The notes: a model not told the origin generated them from the sequence alone. Positions 864-8,210 are shown, counted from the first letter of the stretch. The stretch is 64,000 nt of DNA from Candidatus Bipolaricaulis sibiricus (GCA_004102645.1 CP034928.1:186001-250000); one strand, 5' to 3'. Translations and numbers: made by a program.

Positions 864-1952
864 CTAGAGGGCGATCTCGTGGTACGCGCCCGCGCACGGT
901 GGACCAGCGGCGTACTGCAGACGTCGCGCTCGGAGGTCCATCACCACGGAGAGCACGGTTCGGTAGTTGAGCGCGGGTGGGAAGAGCGGGCTCTCGTGAC
1001 GGCACACGGAGTCGGGGCGGCCGACGTGGTCCCGAAGCGCGTCCTGAACGGATTCTACCGACACTTGCCCCGCGCCTGCCGCTTGGGTGAGCCGGTCCGC
1101 CAGCCGGCGTTGACGGAGGTGGGTGGATCGGCGGTCCTCGGCCAGAGGTTCTCGTACCCCGAGCTGCTCGGCGCGAAGGAAATGGTTTGCGTGGACGAGG
1201 ATCCCGTTGTCGGGCTCGATCTGTGCGGTCCCGGTCGGAGCCCGTTCGAAGGCGCTCGCTCGGCCTCGCGTGGCATCGCCGACGAGGAAGCTCGCTGAGC
1301 ACGGGCTCCTTCCTGCCTCAACCACGGCCGCCGCGGCGTCGAGGTCCGAGGAGAGAAGGACGCGCCACGCGCGGACGTGGAAGGGGATTCCTTCGCCATC
1401 CCACCTATCGAGGTGAGACAGGAGGCCGGTCACCGCGAGGCCGATCCCGGCCGAGTTGAAGCCGATCTTCCCCCCGACGATTCCCGCCTCGGTGAAGGCG
1501 AGCACGGTGAGGTCTCCCCAGCGAACCCTCAGCCACACGCCCTCCACCTCGGGGAACCAATCCCAGTTCTCGCCCACGAGGAGGCCGCCTCCGGCGCACG
1601 CGGGGAGGATGGCGAACGCGGTGCAGGCCGTGGCCAGACCGGTGGAGGAGAACTCGCTGTAGAAGAGCTCGTAGCGGGCATTGAGCGCAGCGATGTCGAG
1701 GACGGACAGCCCGGAACCGGCAGCAACGCCCCTCAGTGCGGCTGCGTAGGGCGGGTCCAGTTCAGAGACGCGCTCCAGCCACATCGCAGCACGTCGATGA
1801 ACCTCGGCCTGTTCCAGCCCCACCTCGTCACGGTACCGGCGGGTGTAGAGGGAGAGGTTGTTCTTGATCCGATCGCTCGCCTCTCGTCCGTGGCCGAGGC
1901 CGATGGCACGGGGGCCGCCTGCCAACTCCAGGATGGGGAGTGGCGCGCTCAC
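864..1952 (-). CDS. C45-family peptidase / acyl-CoA:isopenicillin N acyltransferase-like NTN hydrolase
   Basis: The protein is about 362 residues from the GTG at 1952, chosen because it follows the preceding gene by 35 nt and a GAGG lies upstream. A longer frame would run back through the preceding gene. The motif ATACTAF, with the predicted autocatalytic nucleophile Cys110, is followed about 17 residues later by GENWDW (about 127-132). This is the hallmark of the C45 / acyl-coenzyme A:6-aminopenicillanic acid acyltransferase family, in which self-cleavage before the Cys exposes an N-terminal nucleophile. Such enzymes hydrolyse or form amide bonds; the substrate here is unknown. It is the last gene of the operon with three RHH-cupin paralogues. 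No clear signal peptide is seen from this start. Confidence 0.78.
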   Translation of the reverse strand: MSAPLPILELAGGPRAIGLGHGREASDRIKNNLSLYTRRYRDEVGLEQAEVHRRAAMWLERVSELDPPYAAALRGVAAGSGLSVLDIAALNARYELFYSEFSSTGLATACTAFAILPACAGGGLLVGENWDWFPEVEGVWLRVRWGDLTVLAFTEAGIVGGKIGFNSAGIGLAVTGLLSHLDRWDGEGIPFHVRAWRVLLSSDLDAAAAVVEAGRSPCSASFLVGDATRGRASAFERAPTGTAQIEPDNGILVHANHFLRAEQLGVREPLAEDRRSTHLRQRRLADRLTQAAGAGQVSVESVQDALRDHVGRPDSVCRHESPLFPPALNYRTVLSVVMDLRARRLQYAAGPPCAGAYHEIAL

Positions 1953-1987
1953 GATCGCCGAGCCTCGTGCTGTCTCCGCACCGCTTC

Positions 1988-2572
1988 CTACCTCGGCAGC
2001 GAGAGGGCGGGCGTGCAGACGAGAACGGCGCGCGTGTCCGGGGTCAGCGGGGTCGAGACGTGAGGGGTTCGCGGCGGAATGTGGATCACCGAGTGCGGAC
2101 CGAACTCCTTCTCCTCGTCGTCGATCCGCATGCGGACTTTCCCCGAAAGAACAATCGCCCACACGTGGCTTTCGTCGTGTACGAGCTCAGGGGTAGAAAC
2201 CCTCTTCGCATCTCGAGCCCAGTGGTCGAACACCTGGACGTGGTCGTCCGGGCTTCGGTACACCTCTCTTCCCTCCCAGCTTCCGATGGTCATCACCTGC
2301 CGGTCTGGATCATCGGCCATGGCCTCTGCGATGCGGCGCTGGGCAGATCGCAGCGCCTGCGCGGCAGCTTGTTTGGCCCGGTCGTACTCCTCGCGGGTGA
2401 TCTTGCCGGTCGCGATCAGCTTTTCCACGACCAGTTCTTCCTTCGTGGGGATGGAGAGCGCGGCGCGGAGCGCGGAGTTGCCGATCTCTTTGACCGTGAT
2501 GCCGACCCGCTTCTTGCGGGCCTTGAGGGCCTTGTGGACGTCGTCATCCAGGACGAGGTGTTGGATCTTCAT
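1988..2572 (-). CDS. Ribbon-helix-helix/cupin fusion protein, paralogue 3
   Basis: A 194-residue protein. The start ATG at 2572 has an AGGAGG sequence 6 nt upstream and overlaps the previous stop (ATGA). Residues 1-40 (MKIQHLVLDDDVHKALKARK...) look like a ribbon-helix-helix DNA-binding fold: short strand, helix, turn, helix. A short helical segment containing TGKITREEYDRA follows, reminiscent of SHOCT-type oligomerisation segments. The C-terminal half is a cupin barrel with the metal-type cluster HDESH, a glycine turn (VLSGKVRMRI) and a distal PPRTPH. The ligand is unknown. It is nearly superimposable on the two upstream paralogues in the N-terminal half but more divergent in the cupin. Inferred role: small-molecule-responsive regulator. 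Confidence 0.7.
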   Translation of the reverse strand: MKIQHLVLDDDVHKALKARKKRVGITVKEIGNSALRAALSIPTKEELVVEKLIATGKITREEYDRAKQAAAQALRSAQRRIAEAMADDPDRQVMTIGSWEGREVYRSPDDHVQVFDHWARDAKRVSTPELVHDESHVWAIVLSGKVRMRIDDEEKEFGPHSVIHIPPRTPHVSTPLTPDTRAVLVCTPALSLPR

Positions 2573-3213
2573 CGGGCGCCTCCTCGTGAAGCCCGCGCTC
2601 TCCTCTCCTTCTTTGGTGCCCCCAGTGTGTCGCGCGATTGGGACTCCGGAGGAGACATCAGCATGAGCATCACGGTGTTCCGGGTGAGGGGCGCCGAGTT
2701 GTGGAGGACCCCGGGAGGAATCAGGACCGGTTCCCCTGGCCCACACACGCGCTCCTCCGCTCCGATGCGCCACCGCACCTTCCCCTGGAGCACAACCGCC
2801 CACGAATGTGCCTCGCTGTGCTCGTGCAGGGTACTGGGTGTCTTCTTCCCGTCGGCAGCCTCATGGGCGAACAGAACGAACATGCCTTGTGGATCGCGAT
2901 GGATCATCGCTCCCTTCCAGCTGCCCACGGTGACCGTCGTTCCGTCAAGGGGCGGTACGATCGGCTGGCGGGCTGCGGCGCGTCCGGACTTCAGGCTCCG
3001 CGTCGCAGCGGCCACTGCTCGGTCGTACTCCTCGCGGGTGATCTTGCCCGTCTCGACGAGCTTCTGTGCGATCAGCTCCTGTTTCGTGGGCACGAGCAGC
3101 GCGGCGCGGAGAGCGGAGTTTCCGATCTCTTTGACCGTGATGCCCACCTGCTTCTTGCGGGCTTTGAGGGCCTTGTGGACGTCGTTGTCCAGCACGAGAT
3201 GTTGGATTTTCAT
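2569..3213 (-). CDS. Ribbon-helix-helix/cupin fusion protein, paralogue 2
   Basis: A 214-residue protein with the same architecture as its neighbours. The N-terminal RHH-like segment is nearly identical to the other two copies. A linker carrying TGKITREEYDRA follows, then a cupin with LHEHSEAHSW (putative metal His residues) and PPGVLH. It overlaps both neighbours by 4 nt, so translation is probably coupled through the whole operon. The last about 20 residues are basic and Arg/Ala-rich and absent from paralogue 3. Function is not known; the conserved DNA-binding half with a diverging sensor half suggests three regulators that read similar DNA but different ligands. Confidence 0.7.
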   Translation of the reverse strand: MKIQHLVLDNDVHKALKARKKQVGITVKEIGNSALRAALLVPTKQELIAQKLVETGKITREEYDRAVAAATRSLKSGRAAARQPIVPPLDGTTVTVGSWKGAMIHRDPQGMFVLFAHEAADGKKTPSTLHEHSEAHSWAVVLQGKVRWRIGAEERVCGPGEPVLIPPGVLHNSAPLTRNTVMLMLMSPPESQSRDTLGAPKKERRARASRGGAR

Positions 3214-3875
3214 GCTTTCCTCGTTGTTCGCGGGACCTTGTTCGGGCGACGGGTGCGTGCGGGGCGCTCACTGGTTGGATCCGGGCACTCGCCGGGATCG
3301 AACCGCTCAGGAGGGGCGACGATACTCACGACGCAGGTGTCACGGGTCAGCGGGGCCGAACAGTGGGCCACTCCGGGTGGGTAGTACGTCCACTCGTGGA
3401 CCCCCAACACGCGCTCTTCCTGTGCGGTCCGGGCGAGGATCTTGCCGGACAGCACGATCCCCCACACGTGACTCTCCGTGTGGTAGTGCAGGGGAGGGGC
3501 AATCCTTCTTCCATCGCGCGCGCGGTGTTCGAACACGGCGTACGAATCGTCCTTGCTGCGGTAGATCTCGCGCACGGTCCAGCTTCCCACGGACACGCTC
3601 TTCGACCCAGGGGCTGGACGGAACAGCTCGATGGCCTTCCGTTGGGCGGCCCGCAGGTGGGCCTGGGCAGCGGCCACCGCTGCATCGTAGTCGTCTGGGG
3701 TGATCTTCCCCGTCTCGACGAGCTTCTCGACGATCATCTCGTCCAGGGTGGGCAGGGCGAGGGCCGCGCGAAGGGCGGAGTTGCCGATCTCCTTGACGGT
3801 GATGCCGACCTGCTTCTTGCGGGCCTTGAGTGCCCTGTGGACATCGTCGTCCAACACCAGATGCTGGATCTTCAC
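3210..3875 (-). CDS. Ribbon-helix-helix/cupin fusion protein, paralogue 1 (operon head)
   Basis: A 221-residue protein starting at a GTG (3875) with a strong AAGGAGGGG just upstream. The RHH-like segment is residues 1-40, the TGKITPDDYDAA linker about 56-67, and the cupin about 95-190. The cupin carries LHYHTESH (His130, His132, Glu134, His136) and a distal His171 in PPGVAH, the expected metal ligands. It is the first gene of a four-gene operon with two paralogues and the C45 peptidase. A 16-bp palindrome 25 nt before its start is a plausible autoregulatory operator. The family as a fusion is not one I can name; each half is recognisable by pattern. Confidence 0.72.
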   Translation of the reverse strand: MKIQHLVLDDDVHRALKARKKQVGITVKEIGNSALRAALALPTLDEMIVEKLVETGKITPDDYDAAVAAAQAHLRAAQRKAIELFRPAPGSKSVSVGSWTVREIYRSKDDSYAVFEHRARDGRRIAPPLHYHTESHVWGIVLSGKILARTAQEERVLGVHEWTYYPPGVAHCSAPLTRDTCVVSIVAPPERFDPGECPDPTSERPARTRRPNKVPRTTRKA

Positions 3876-3899
3876 GACCCCTCCTTAAGCTACCGGGCA

Positions 3900-3915
3900 A
3901 CAGTTTAACGACTGT
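3900..3915 (-). promoter_or_regulatory. Palindrome upstream of the RHH-cupin operon (candidate operator)
   Basis: The sequence ACAGTTTAACGACTGT has perfect 5-bp arms (ACAGT/ACTGT) around a 6-bp AT-rich centre, unusual in this GC-rich context. It lies 25 nt upstream of the GTG of the first RHH-cupin gene and downstream of rsmI. RHH proteins bind short palindromes as paired dimers, so autoregulation is a reasonable inference. Confidence 0.4.
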
Positions 3916-3942
3916 ACAGCGCAGGGAGAGGCGATGCAAGTC

Positions 3943-4800
3943 CTACGCTGCGGAGGCAGATCCGTCGGACTTGGAGTGGAGGGTCTGGTACACCCGGCGG
4001 CGGCTCAGGTTCAAGCGGTGCGCCGTCTCCTGGAGCGCTTCGCGAGGGGAGAGACCCGCCGCGATGAGCTCGGCGTACACGGTGCGCGCAGCCTCGGGGG
4101 ACGGCGCGGAGTGCGTCGTGTCGCCGGGTGGGCCGACCACGATCGCCAGCTCACCCCTCACCTCGGCCCGCGCGGCAAGGGCCCGTTCCACCTCTGCCGC
4201 CGTGCCACGAACGAACTCCTCGTGGAGCTTCGTGAGCTCGCGGGCGACGGCCACGGGGCGGGAGCCCCACCGCTCGGCGAGCTGCCGGAGCGAAGCAGCG
4301 ATCCGGTGGGGGGACTCGTAGAACACCACCGTGCAGTCCACCGTATCCAGCACTTCGAGGGCCTTCCCGCGGGGGCCCGGCTGGCGAGGGAGGTGGCCGA
4401 GGAACAGGAACCGGTCCATGGGGAGCCCCGAGGCGACGAGGGCAGCGAGCAGCGCGCTCGGCCCGGGGACGGGCACGACGGGGATCCCCTCCCCCACGCA
4501 CGCCCGGACGAGCGGGTAGCCGGGATCGGACAGGAGCGGCGTCCCTGCGTCGGACACGAGGGCCACGGTCTTCCCAGCGCGGAGGAGGGCGATCACCTCC
4601 CGGGTCCGTTCGTCCTCCGCGCCCTGGAACAGGCTTGGGGCGAACCGGGTGTGGATGCCGTAGTGGGAGAGGAGCTTCCGCGTCCGCCGGGTGTCCTCGC
4701 CCACGATCAGATCGACCTCGCGGAGGACCCGCAGCGCGCGCAGGGTGATGTCCTCGAGGTTTCCGATCGGGGTCGAGCACACGTAGAGCGTCCCCGCCAT
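3943..4800 (-). CDS. rsmI: 16S rRNA (cytidine1402-2'-O)-methyltransferase RsmI
   Basis: A 285-residue protein from the ATG at 4800. It starts TLYVCSTPIGNLEDITLRAL, the RsmI/YraL signature, and contains VGEDTRRTRKLL, SDAGTPLLSDPG (SAM-binding tetrapyrrole-methylase fold) and VFYESPHR. It methylates the ribose of C1402 in the decoding centre of 16S rRNA. The C-terminal about 40 residues form the usual helical tail (LSRRRVYQ). A GATAAT hexamer ends 6 nt before the ATG with no Shine-Dalgarno sequence, so the transcript may be leaderless. It is divergent from prfB. Confidence 0.95.
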   Translation of the reverse strand: MAGTLYVCSTPIGNLEDITLRALRVLREVDLIVGEDTRRTRKLLSHYGIHTRFAPSLFQGAEDERTREVIALLRAGKTVALVSDAGTPLLSDPGYPLVRACVGEGIPVVPVPGPSALLAALVASGLPMDRFLFLGHLPRQPGPRGKALEVLDTVDCTVVFYESPHRIAASLRQLAERWGSRPVAVARELTKLHEEFVRGTAAEVERALAARAEVRGELAIVVGPPGDTTHSAPSPEAARTVYAELIAAGLSPREALQETAHRLNLSRRRVYQTLHSKSDGSASAA

Positions 4801-4902: not shown

Positions 4903-5997
4903 GTGGACGAGCATCTGCGCGATCTGCGGGACCGGATCGAGCGCCTCGGGAAGAGCCTGGACGCTGACGGGCTCCGGAACCAGATCCAGACCATCGAGCG
5001 AGAGATGGCCCAGCCTGGGTTCTGGGACGACCGGTCTGCAAGCCAGGCCAAGGTGCGGGAGTTGGAGGCGGCGAAGGGGCGCCTGGGCGAGTACTCCCGC
5101 CTCACCGCGGCGCTCGACGAGGTGGAGGTCCTGTTCGAGCTCGCCGACGAAGAGGGGGACGAGGCGACGCGGGCCGAGGCCGAGGCCGCCCTCGCCAAGC
5201 TCGACGAGGATTTCGAACGGGTACGCGTCCAGTTCCTCCTGTCCGGGCCCTACGACGGGAGCGATTGCTTCCTCGCCCTCAACGCTGGGGCTGGGGGCAC
5301 GGACTCCCAGGACTGGACGGAGATGCTGCTCCGCATGTACACCCGGTTCTGCGAGCGGGCAGGGTTCGCGGTGAGGTTGGTTGACGAGTCGCCGGGTGAG
5401 GAGGCCGGCCTCAAGTCGGCCACCCTCGAGGTCAAAGGGCGGAATGCGTTCGGAATCCTGAGGGGCGAGACCGGAGTCCACCGGTTGGTGCGGATCTCTC
5501 CGTTCGACTCGGCAGCCCGGCGCCACACCTCGTTTGCTTCGGTCACGGTCACGCCGATCGTTCCCGAGGACGACCTCGTGATCGCCGACGACGACCTCAA
5601 GATCGACTCGTTCCGCGCTGGGGGTCCCGGCGGGCAGCACATGCAGAAGAACGAGACCGCGGTTCGGATCACCCACCTGCCGACCGGGATCGTGGTCGGG
5701 TGCCAGAACGAGCGGTCCCAGATGCAGAACAAGCTCACCGCGATGCGAATGCTGCGCGCGAAGCTCCGGGCCCTGATGGAGCAGGAACAGGCACGGAGGT
5801 TGGACGAACTGCGCGGGGAACTGGCGGACATCGAGTGGGGGCACCAGATCCGATCCTACGTCCTCCAGCCCTACCAGCTGGTCAAGGACCACCGCACTGA
5901 GGTCGAGGTGGGGAACGTCCAGGCCGTGCTCGACGGCGACCTGTGGCCCTTCATTTGGGCCTGGCTGGAACGCACCCAGATCACGGCCAAGGATTAG
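4903..5997 (+). CDS. prfB: Peptide chain release factor 2
   Basis: A 364-residue protein starting at GTG 4903. It contains the RF2 recognition tripeptide SPF (about residue 199, in SPFDSAARRHTSF) that reads UGA/UAA stop codons, and the catalytic GGQ (about 243, in GGQHMQKNETAVR) that enters the peptidyl transferase centre. Coiled-coil domain 1 occupies the first about 90 residues. In many bacteria RF2 needs a programmed +1 frameshift at an early in-frame UGA. Here the frame is uninterrupted from the GTG and has full family length, so that autoregulation is absent. Divergent from rsmI. Confidence 0.96.
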   Translation: MDEHLRDLRDRIERLGKSLDADGLRNQIQTIEREMAQPGFWDDRSASQAKVRELEAAKGRLGEYSRLTAALDEVEVLFELADEEGDEATRAEAEAALAKLDEDFERVRVQFLLSGPYDGSDCFLALNAGAGGTDSQDWTEMLLRMYTRFCERAGFAVRLVDESPGEEAGLKSATLEVKGRNAFGILRGETGVHRLVRISPFDSAARRHTSFASVTVTPIVPEDDLVIADDDLKIDSFRAGGPGGQHMQKNETAVRITHLPTGIVVGCQNERSQMQNKLTAMRMLRAKLRALMEQEQARRLDELRGELADIEWGHQIRSYVLQPYQLVKDHRTEVEVGNVQAVLDGDLWPFIWAWLERTQITAKD

Positions 5998-6027
5998 GGC
6001 TCCCGTTCGCCTGGCTAAAGCGCGGCG

Positions 6028-7401
6028 TTACCGAAGGACGCGGATCCCGCGTTCCTCCAACTCATCCAGCACCTCCCGCGCCTCGGGCTTGAGGAGGATC
6101 CTTGTCGCGTTCAAGAGTCGCAACGACGGGAGCTCCAGCAGCGAAGCGAAGCTGGCGACCGGGTTCGCGGAGAGATCCAGGATCTCCAGGCGGAGGAGTC
6201 CGGCCAGGGGACCGATGTCGGACACGTTGTTTCCCCCGAGGAGGAGGTCCCGCAGGCCTGCGAGGTTGGCGAGGGGTTCGACGGATCGAACCCTGTTTCC
6301 CTGAACGTTCAAGGTCGCGAGGTTCGTCAATCCAGCCAGGGGGGAGAGGTCGGCGATCCGCGCCCCGGCCGCGATGAGCTTCGTCAGGTTCTTCAGTCCG
6401 GACAACGGCGCGAGATCCCACACCGGGTTCCCCGAGATCGCCACCGTCTCGAGCCTCGCGAGCCCGGCCAGCGGTTCGAGGGTGGCCACCCGGTTCCCGC
6501 TCAGGTCCAGGTACCGGAGTTCGCTGAGGGAGGCAACGGGGGAGACGTCGGCCACGGCGTTGTGGCCCAGGTCCAGGTACCGGAGGCGGCCAAGCTCGCT
6601 CAGAGGACGCAGATCGGAGACTCCATTCCCCAACAGAACGAGCTTCTCCAGGTTACGAAGACCGGCGAGCGGGCTGATGTCGGCGATAGCGTTCTGCGTC
6701 GCGGAGATCTCCCGAAGCTCCGTGAGGGTCGCGAGCGGCGAGAGGTCCGTGACCGCGTTCATGTCGATCCACAGCCGGCGCAGGCTCTCGAGGCCGGAGA
6801 GAGGGGACAGGTCGAACACGTTGTTCGCCATCAGCATGAGCCACTTCAGGTTCTTGAGCCCCGCCAGGGGCGCGAGGTCCAAGACCTCGTTGAAGGTGAG
6901 GTCCAGCCACTCGAGGGCGTGGAGCGAAGCCAAAGGAGCGACGTCCCGGATCCGGTTGTGGCCGAGGCCCAGGAGGGAGAGCGTGGTCAGTCCGGCCAGA
7001 GGGGAAAGGTCCTCGATCTCGTTGAACGCGGCCTCCACCGTCCTCAGCCGGGGGAGGTTGGACACCGGGGAAAGATCGCGCACGCGGTTCCACCCAAGGG
7101 AGAGCTCCTCCAGCGCCGAGAGGCCCGAGAGAGGGGCTAGGTCGGAGACCCGGTTGTCGGCGAGGGCGAGCTTCCTCAGGTTCACCGCGTGCTCCAGTCC
7201 TGTGAGGTCCTCGATGCCCAGTCCCATCGCCTCGAGTTCCGTGAGGCCCGCCAGGTCACCCACCGTAAGGTCGCCCTCGGGCTTCCCGAGCGCGGCCCGG
7301 ATCGCTCCCTCCAGCCCGGGATCAGGGACGACGACCGTCTCCGATCCCAACCCGACGAGACCCCACACGAGCGCCAGCGCCACCACGACCATCGTCCTCA
7401 T
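6028..7401 (-). CDS. Exported leucine-rich repeat protein (internalin-like, 22-residue repeats)
   Basis: A 457-residue protein from the ATG at 7401 (GGAGGAGG upstream). Residues 1-20 form a signal peptide (MRTMVVVALALVWGLVGLG). After a short cap (DPGLEGAIRAAL), about 18 repeats of 22 residues follow the pattern LxxLxxLxLxxNxVxDLxPLxG, the Listeria-internalin/SDS22 type. A C-terminal cap ends LDELEERGIRVLR. LRR arcs are protein-binding scaffolds; no sorting signal or membrane anchor is visible, so the protein is probably periplasmic or surface-associated. A TATACT hexamer lies about 21 nt upstream of the start. It is the last gene before convergent prfB. Confidence 0.85.
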   Translation of the reverse strand: MRTMVVVALALVWGLVGLGSETVVVPDPGLEGAIRAALGKPEGDLTVGDLAGLTELEAMGLGIEDLTGLEHAVNLRKLALADNRVSDLAPLSGLSALEELSLGWNRVRDLSPVSNLPRLRTVEAAFNEIEDLSPLAGLTTLSLLGLGHNRIRDVAPLASLHALEWLDLTFNEVLDLAPLAGLKNLKWLMLMANNVFDLSPLSGLESLRRLWIDMNAVTDLSPLATLTELREISATQNAIADISPLAGLRNLEKLVLLGNGVSDLRPLSELGRLRYLDLGHNAVADVSPVASLSELRYLDLSGNRVATLEPLAGLARLETVAISGNPVWDLAPLSGLKNLTKLIAAGARIADLSPLAGLTNLATLNVQGNRVRSVEPLANLAGLRDLLLGGNNVSDIGPLAGLLRLEILDLSANPVASFASLLELPSLRLLNATRILLKPEAREVLDELEERGIRVLR

Positions 7402-7442
7402 CGCGCACCTCCTCCGCAGTTCAGTATAGCAGGACCGACCCG

Positions 7443-8210
7443 CTACGGCCCTCGCCCGGTCCACTCCGCCTCCAGCGACACCCACGCCCGATCCCCGCGA
7501 AGGGACAGCGTGGCACGCACCCCGAGTTCCCCCTTTCCCCGCGGGTCCAGCGCGTAGCGAAGTCGCACGCCGAGCGACGTCACCGGAACACCCACCCCGA
7601 GCACGGGCACGGCCAGGCTCCCGGAGGTGCTGACGCTGATCCAGGCGTTGGCCACGAACCCCGCTCCCAGACCCAGGGTGAACCACGCGTGGGGTTCCTC
7701 CTCTTGGCTCCGCAGGCCGACCTCCCCCACCAGCACCATCGGGTCGCGCAAGAAGCTCGCCGCCACTCCGATCCCGCCTTTCCACGGGTGCCCAAGCGAC
7801 ATCGAGACGCGGGGATCCCACGGGTTCTTCGGATCGATCCGCCACTCCTGGAACACCGAGTACGCCATTCCACGCTCGCTGCTCGACAGGCGTTCCTCGC
7901 CCCACGGGTACCGCCGGACCTCGTCCAGAGTGGTCGTGCTCTGCGAGACCGCGACCCCCGTCTTCCATCCCTCGCCGAAGTGGACCGTTCCCGTCAAGCT
8001 AAGCTGCCACTCCTGACTGAGCAGCGTGTAGGTGTACGGTTGGCCGAAGGCGTCCACTGCCAGCCCTTCCCGGCCGGACGGGGTGTAGCCGAGCCCGAGC
8101 TGCCAGGTGTACTCCCCCGTGGCCTCGTCCGGCCGCTTCAGGGGATCGATCGGGGTCTGGGCCCACGCCGTGACGGAGAGGAGAATAAGCGTGGCTACAA
8201 TCCCACTCAC
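7443..8210 (-). CDS. Small exported protein, predicted outer-membrane beta-barrel
   Basis: A 255-residue protein from the GTG at 8210, chosen because it begins a good signal peptide (VSGIVATLILLSVTAWA followed by QTPIDP). The remainder alternates hydrophobic and polar residues with many Trp, Tyr, Gly and Ser (for example WQLGLGYTPSGREG, WKTGVAVSQSTTT, LGVRLRYALDPRGK). It ends in strand-like VSLEAEWTGRGP, which suggests 10-12 transmembrane beta strands. I cannot name the family. It is downstream of the C39 peptidase with a 296-nt repeat-bearing gap, so co-transcription with that locus is uncertain. Confidence 0.55.
   Translation of the reverse strand: MSGIVATLILLSVTAWAQTPIDPLKRPDEATGEYTWQLGLGYTPSGREGLAVDAFGQPYTYTLLSQEWQLSLTGTVHFGEGWKTGVAVSQSTTTLDEVRRYPWGEERLSSSERGMAYSVFQEWRIDPKNPWDPRVSMSLGHPWKGGIGVAASFLRDPMVLVGEVGLRSQEEEPHAWFTLGLGAGFVANAWISVSTSGSLAVPVLGVGVPVTSLGVRLRYALDPRGKGELGVRATLSLRGDRAWVSLEAEWTGRGP

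Follow-up and report, generated by a model that had tools for sequence, protein, structure and literature searches.

One end of a 64,000-nt stretch of the genome of Candidatus Bipolaricaulis sibiricus (GCA_004102645.1 CP034928.1:186001-250000), referred to below as the window, encodes three tandem proteins that combine an N-terminal domain resembling ribbon-helix-helix (RHH) DNA readers with a C-terminal cupin domain, followed by a C45-family hydrolase. All coordinates without a contig label are window positions. The genome itself (G000) is complete and consists of one contig of 1.70 Mb; together with 11 relatives from the Bipolaricaulota, it makes up the set of twelve genomes used here for comparisons within the genus. 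The genes lie on the minus strand in the order rsmI, RHH-cupin A, B, and C, and the C45 gene, which ends at position 864:

3943..4800, minus strand, 16S rRNA 2'-O-methyltransferase, presumably rsmI (a name given on sequence knowledge rather than a family search); the conserved upstream neighbor, marking the invariant left edge of the variable array, with the synteny prfB / rsmI / zero to three RHH-cupin genes / C45 in relatives
3210..3875, minus strand, RHH-cupin A, 221 residues, GTG start; RHH domain (residues 1-40) at 3756-3875, helical SHOCT-like linker at residues ~44-80, cupin domain (residues 95-190) at 3306-3593 with an HxHxxxH metal motif and the motif-2 His
2569..3213, minus strand, RHH-cupin B, 214 residues, metal motif HEHSEAH; RHH domain at 3094-3213, cupin domain at ~2644-2931
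1988..2572, minus strand, RHH-cupin C, 194 residues, first metal His lost (LVHDESH); RHH domain at 2453-2572, cupin domain at ~2003-2290
864..1952, minus strand, C45 (AAT-type) N-terminal nucleophile (Ntn) hydrolase/acyltransferase, ~362 residues counted from GTG1952; predicted nucleophile Cys at 1623-1625, within ATACTAF

The three tandem paralogs described in the first-pass annotation of this DNA are thus present as claimed (A at 3875-3210, B at 3213-2569, and C at 2572-1988). The same annotation had all the genes overlapping by 4 nt, which holds for the A/B and B/C junctions but fails at the junction of C and C45: the third overlap is not real, because the C45 frame at 1991 begins with GTA, not a start codon, and the likely start is a GTG in the same frame, at 1952. 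That GTG lies close to the starts of the homologs (e.g., an ATG in G005), and beginning translation there, as is most likely judging from the sequence, leaves a gap of ~35 nt after gene C.

The assignment of the last gene is clear. It matches the C45 family profile NF040521 with an E-value of 5e-65 (220 bits against a cut-off of 85) and the Pfam family AAT with an E-value of 2e-13, which confirms that the operon ends in a C45 peptidase, a member of the autoproteolytic acyltransferases/hydrolases. The predicted nucleophile Cys at the autoprocessing site is conserved in the correctly framed homologs. A related enzyme of known structure, acyl-CoA:isopenicillin N acyltransferase (PDB 2x1c; E-value, 5e-24), shares homology across ~275 residues, and the positions of the Cys nucleophile coincide in the alignment; it differs in belonging to a beta-lactam pathway, a context that was not seen around the C45 gene, where no search for one was made. 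The C45 gene of G001 (L041:6617-7722) has diverged further (56%), and near the end the match to it crosses several frames; judging from these features, it may be a decaying gene or pseudogene, or may be misassembled.

Every pairwise comparison of A, B, and C gives 92% identity over residues 1 to 40, as against 44% over residues 41 to 94 and 41 to 48% over the cupin regions, as the first-pass annotation had noticed when it described near-identical N termini attached to diverged cupin halves. The strand residues I3, H5, and V7 are the same in all three proteins, and the motif HLVLDxDVH...GN..LR is nearly invariant across the phylum. The N termini of the RHH-cupin proteins display the RHH sequence pattern, a gapless N-terminal beta-alpha-alpha arrangement: they align in register and without gaps with 11 Pfam RHH_1 proteins of the phylum, with z-scores of 5.2 to 6.7 against shuffled sequences for five diverse members. 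Matches to Omega_Repress are weak and below threshold but were detected in 19 of the 22 family members and are in register in A, B, and C, and the hhalign alignment of the N terminus to RHH is likewise in register and weak (P of 0.002). A hidden Markov model built from the gapless subset of RHH_1 separated most members from shuffled sequences, although the gapless alignment test was the clearer of the two; a model built from all RHH_1 sequences, including the insertion-bearing ones, gave no separation. The N-terminal half scored above no curated family cut-off, no family of the helix-turn-helix (HTH) or XRE type was found over it in Pfam and NCBIfam searches, a profile search against PDB sequences returned weak RNase P matches and no RHH proteins, and a Foldseek search with the N-terminal model returned no matches. 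AlphaFold monomer models have low confidence over the first 8 to 10 residues and place helices near residues 10 to 23 and 32 to 38; residues ~44 to 80 form two confident helices resembling SHOCT (weak matches in 4 of 22 members). The RHH identity proposed by the first-pass annotation is thus supported by the sequence and unproven by structure.

The C-terminal halves are cupins. Cupin_2 was matched in 22 of 22 family members (with E-values up to 1); B and C score above the curated cut-off, and A alone falls below it. The AlphaFold model of the B cupin has pLDDT (per-residue model confidence) values of ~80 to 93 and the fold of the Cupin superfamily, with Foldseek matches to KdgF, Sthe2323, and quercetinase cupins (E-value, ~4e-8). 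The metal-site differences reported in the first-pass annotation (HYHTESH, HEHSEAH, and VHDESH) are genuine: A and B carry HxHxxxH, and C lacks the first His. The canonical metal motif 1, HxHxxxE, was found in none of the operon copies (HxHxxxH in A and B, xVHDESH in C) but is kept in some relatives from a second family within the class (f2), such as G059x. Since A and B retain a possible His-rich metal site (HxHxxxH plus the motif-2 His) and quercetin 2,3-dioxygenase and KdgF are among the best profile and fold matches, these proteins might be trigger enzymes, i.e., catalytically active cupins (dioxygenases or isomerases) whose RHH domain localizes or autoregulates them, as in PutA. We consider this improbable: every operon copy has another residue in place of the Glu of HxHxxxE, C is missing its first His, the G000d copy keeps even fewer metal residues and G000e has lost most of them, and it is the DNA reader, not the pocket, in which most of the conservation lies.

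Sequence comparison among genomes shows the pockets to be distinct and anciently separate. In the cupin tree, A and B form separate clades with support of 98 to 100; orthologous A and B cupins are 67 to 76% identical among G000, G001, and G002, compared with 39 to 54% for paralogs, and class-specific pocket residues are retained in both clades across genomes. The same figures bear on the view that the paralogs are redundant duplicates, with N termini kept alike by purifying selection and gene conversion and with all copies sensing the same thing or the extra ones decaying. Such redundancy would suit the unstable copy number (zero to three; the G006 copy is a pseudogene, and G008 retains a remnant) and the loss of one metal ligand in C, but it accords poorly with well-supported cupin clades, with the gap between orthologs and paralogs, and with the maintenance of class-specific pocket residues, and we find it quite unlikely.

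The history of the reader differs from that of the pocket. Trees of the N-terminal 76 residues resolve the A and B clades less clearly and pair the two copies of G011 (support, 88). When codons were compared only at positions with the same amino acid, the RHH-encoding part differed by 0.30 within genomes versus 0.40 between nonorthologous genes of different genomes (confidence interval [CI] of the difference, -0.16 to -0.05), and the cupin-encoding part differed by 0.49 in both comparisons. Such a pattern is consistent with gene conversion that happens now and then and is confined to the reader. A different kind of event is seen in gene C of G010 (L044:5920-6504): of its 59 nucleotide differences from the otherwise near-identical G002 ortholog, 46 fall in codons 136 to ~175. 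The divergent segment (39 residues, codons 136 to 174) reaches from between the metal motifs to the end of the second one and is closest to gene C of G001 (26/39 versus 20/39). It looks like a recombinational swap of the ligand pocket, a reading to be taken with caution because G010 is a metagenome-assembled genome. An intriguing possibility, which we put forward tentatively and regard as rather unlikely, is that of a modular family in which the DNA reader is fixed and homogenized and the pocket is exchanged as a cassette, so that paralogs of the same operon share an operator, mixed oligomers integrate several ligands, and pocket segments recombine between copies.

The genome in question carries five RHH-cupin copies, three in the operon and two elsewhere (C1:1001 kb and C1:472 kb). 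The family is present, intact or partial, in 9 of the 11 other genomes of the genus, counting one 29-residue remnant and one pseudogene, and also in the second family of the class (G059, G092, G085, G087, and G089). A search of 84,980 species for octapeptides taken from the operon, an approach sensitive to close relatives only, found the family only in Bipolaricaulota, and the viral contigs and plasmids searched contain no full-length relative. A record titled "Thermotoga sp." (DYGJ01000002.1, L009) is a contig of G002, within the genus, and its title is apparently a mislabel.

Within the genus, the order prfB, rsmI, RHH-cupin genes, C45 is fixed, and only the number of RHH-cupin genes varies: three in G000, G001, G002, G009, and G010; two in G011; one in G004 and G007; a broken copy beside C45 in G006; and none in G005 and G008, where C45 directly follows rsmI. 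The G006 remnant (L048:1674-2279) has lost the N-terminal strand and carries a frame shift in the cupin; the G008 remnant (L057:6883-7158), ~29 RHH-like residues, lies away from the C45 locus. A gene for a regular leucine-rich-repeat protein (window positions 6028-7968) sits next to prfB and stays beside the locus in several members of the genus. The C45 gene is found in 11 of the 12 genomes; therefore, the enzyme is the constant part of the locus and the regulators are the variable part.

This distribution could also mean that the RHH-cupin products act only on their own genes or on distant ones and that C45 is reached by read-through with no functional tie, as suggested by its presence at the rsmI site without RHH-cupin genes (G005 and G008) or next to a pseudogene (G006) and by the dispersed RHH-cupin copies that lack a C45 partner in the genus and in the second family. 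We regard this explanation as unlikely, because at the rsmI-C45 locus every array of the genus points into C45, which lies directly downstream with no gene between, at copy numbers of one, two, and three alike. In G059 and G092, moreover, an RHH-cupin copy is divergent from a gene for Peptidase_C69, another Cys Ntn hydrolase, across a conserved gap of ~515 bp (L051:4100-5782 with 6297-6893 and L078:7083-8753 with 5983-6570); this second link to an Ntn hydrolase is suggestive, although it comes from one genus only. The x-type RHH-cupin copies of the same two genomes (G059, L049:7463-8515; G092, L077:1214-2278) are both convergent with a gene for an M42 aminopeptidase.

The 68-nt gap between rsmI and gene A contains the following elements:

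3934..3939, minus strand, probable -35 box TTGCAT, directly after rsmI; this layout, with a 16- to 18-nt spacer, is common to seven RHH-cupin promoters
3911..3916, minus strand, probable -10 box TACAGT, identical in G000, G001, G002, and G010; one arm of the reported palindrome
3900..3915, unstranded, reported 16-bp "palindrome" with 5-bp arms and a 6-nt asymmetric spacer; chance overlap with the -10 box
3881..3908, minus strand, TTAA-N16-TTAAGGAG, paired TTAA element, candidate operator half-sites, extending from immediately downstream of the -10 box as far as the Shine-Dalgarno sequence

A scan for the sigma-70 consensus found no promoter at threshold, and TTGCAT is weak relative to that consensus. 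In the relatives, the region upstream of A nevertheless has a consistent arrangement, namely, a -35 box TTG..., 17 nt, the -10 box TACAGT, two bases, TTAA, and then the Shine-Dalgarno sequence TTAAGGAG; the same layout, with TTAA or CTAA, recurs at the G011 array and at unlinked copies in G000 and G009. The 16-bp palindrome that the first-pass annotation placed at the operator position does not survive this comparison. Its complementarity is confined to the outer 5+5 bases (10 of 16 positions in G000) and drops to 2 of 16 at the orthologous sites in three relatives, the other arm, ACTGT, was seen only in G000, and 40% of shuffled versions of the gap would be expected to contain a dyad with 5-bp arms. 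The annotation had itself named lack of conservation in relatives as a finding that would refute its reading. The palindrome is accordingly rejected as the operator, being the -10 box TACAGT plus a chance ACTGT.

The best candidate for the operator, judging from promoter comparisons, is a TTAA-centered half-site. The 1.70-Mb genome contains two matches to the pattern TTAA-N13-17-TTAAGGAG, each upstream of an RHH-cupin gene, and the twelve genomes of the genus contain nine. Seven of these nine matches, all with a spacing of 15 or 16, are at RHH-cupin genes (the A orthologs in five genomes, the G011 pair, and the unlinked fourth copy of G000); the remaining two lie elsewhere and have spacings of 13 and 14, so that every match with a spacing of 15 or 16 precedes an RHH-cupin gene. 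In the distant G085 and G087 of the second family, three same-strand GTTAAT repeats, 36 and 18 bp apart, surround the consensus -35 box TTGACA of an RHH-cupin gene (G087, L079:6935-6994; G085, L080:6749-6808). These repeats account for three of three and three of four GTTAAT hexamers in the G085 and G087 upstream stretches, and GTTAATN11-13GTTAAT was found only at the RHH-cupin genes of these two among 10 genomes searched. Enrichment of single GTTAA sites is weak; spaced pairs alone are specific.

Taken together, these data lead to a reading to which we give about an even chance, that the RHH-cupin proteins are local autoregulatory repressors that resemble the XRE-cupin regulators, have a DNA reader in common but several pockets among them, and control the C45 operon. 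A, B, and C would be one-component regulators, each composed of an RHH reader, a helical SHOCT-like linker, and a C-terminal cupin that forms the ligand pocket. They would be expressed together with their own operon and would most likely repress it, the output of that operon being the C45 Ntn amide hydrolase. Because the reader is nearly invariant (I3, H5, and V7 being identical), a common binding site is expected for all three, probably the paired TTAA element lying across the transcription start and the Shine-Dalgarno region, and they may bind it as mixed oligomers. We infer that the diverged cupin pockets would release or tighten DNA binding in response to different small molecules, which, as a guess, could be compounds that C45 handles, such as amides, amino acids, or peptides; a role for C45 in making or degrading the ligands, as the first-pass annotation had it, would be conjectural. 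The sensor array proposed by the first-pass annotation thus keeps its idea of one reader and several pockets as a hypothesis, in line with the RHH sequence pattern, the distinct pockets, and the linkage to C45: the array is real and conserved and its pockets are kept distinct across genomes, but the operator named for it is not real.

Several observations weigh against autoregulatory repression of the C45 operon. The C45 gene persists without RHH-cupin genes in G005 and G008 and is therefore not dependent on them, and the dispersed RHH-cupin copies stand singly and have no target in common. The TTAA element is absent at the single copies upstream of C45 in G004 and G007 (as well as at G059 and some G092 copies), and the pair may be start-site and Shine-Dalgarno sequence inherited with the gene. 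Because the pattern was derived from some of the promoters that were then searched with it and five of the seven sites are orthologous, independent support comes from the fourth G000 copy and from G011. The codon difference in the RHH-encoding part, when compared with that of orthologs alone (0.37), has the same direction but is not significant (CI, -0.14 to 0.01). Finally, the AlphaFold monomer models do not show the beta strand; as the RHH fold exists only as a dimer, this is expected, and the models neither confirm nor refute the RHH assignment.

Many RHH proteins are antitoxins, and an antitoxin-like module of a toxin-antitoxin system is another conceivable role for the RHH-cupin proteins. 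It is extremely improbable here, given that no small toxin gene was seen beside the array in the genus loci inspected and that the C terminus is a full cupin. A type II toxin-antitoxin system was rejected, the adjacent genes being rsmI, C45, prfB, and one for an oxidoreductase subunit, with no toxin gene among them.

No report of an RHH-cupin fusion was found in the 5.4 million open-access papers searched, and, to our knowledge, few RHH repressors with a fused small-molecule pocket have been described. If the proposed local repression is true, the array would be a natural multi-input promoter, with one operator, one reader, and several interchangeable pockets; it would offer a simple system for studying sensor diversification with a fixed DNA target, as well as a first entry point to how the uncultured Bipolaricaulota regulate their genes. 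The Omega, CopG, and RHH_1 repressors share with the RHH-cupin proteins the beta-alpha-alpha sequence pattern in register, but they are stand-alone readers, and the Pfam scores of the RHH-cupin proteins fall below the curated cut-offs. NikR combines an RHH domain with an ACT-like metal-sensing domain and binds half-sites about two helical turns apart. The proteins described here resemble it in fusing an RHH reader to a ligand- or metal-sensing domain and in the candidate half-site spacing of about two helical turns; however, their sensor is a cupin and not an ACT-like nickel domain, and the repeat is TTAA with N15-16. From the XRE-cupin regulators, they differ in having an RHH-like reader instead of a helix-turn-helix of the HTH_3/XRE type and in the presence of three paralogs with near-identical readers in one operon without a conserved palindrome. 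The XRE-cupin (HTH_3-Cupin_2) regulators of Pseudomonas, such as PauR, PsdR, and ErfA, for which palindromic sites have been reported, are local repressors of neighboring metabolic genes, including the peptide-utilization genes under PsdR (PMC7901475). The likeness lies in the small one-component protein with an N-terminal DNA reader and a C-terminal cupin, in the several paralogs per genome, and in a gene order that, as far as sequence alone tells, is compatible with local repressors of adjacent metabolic genes that are sometimes autoregulated.

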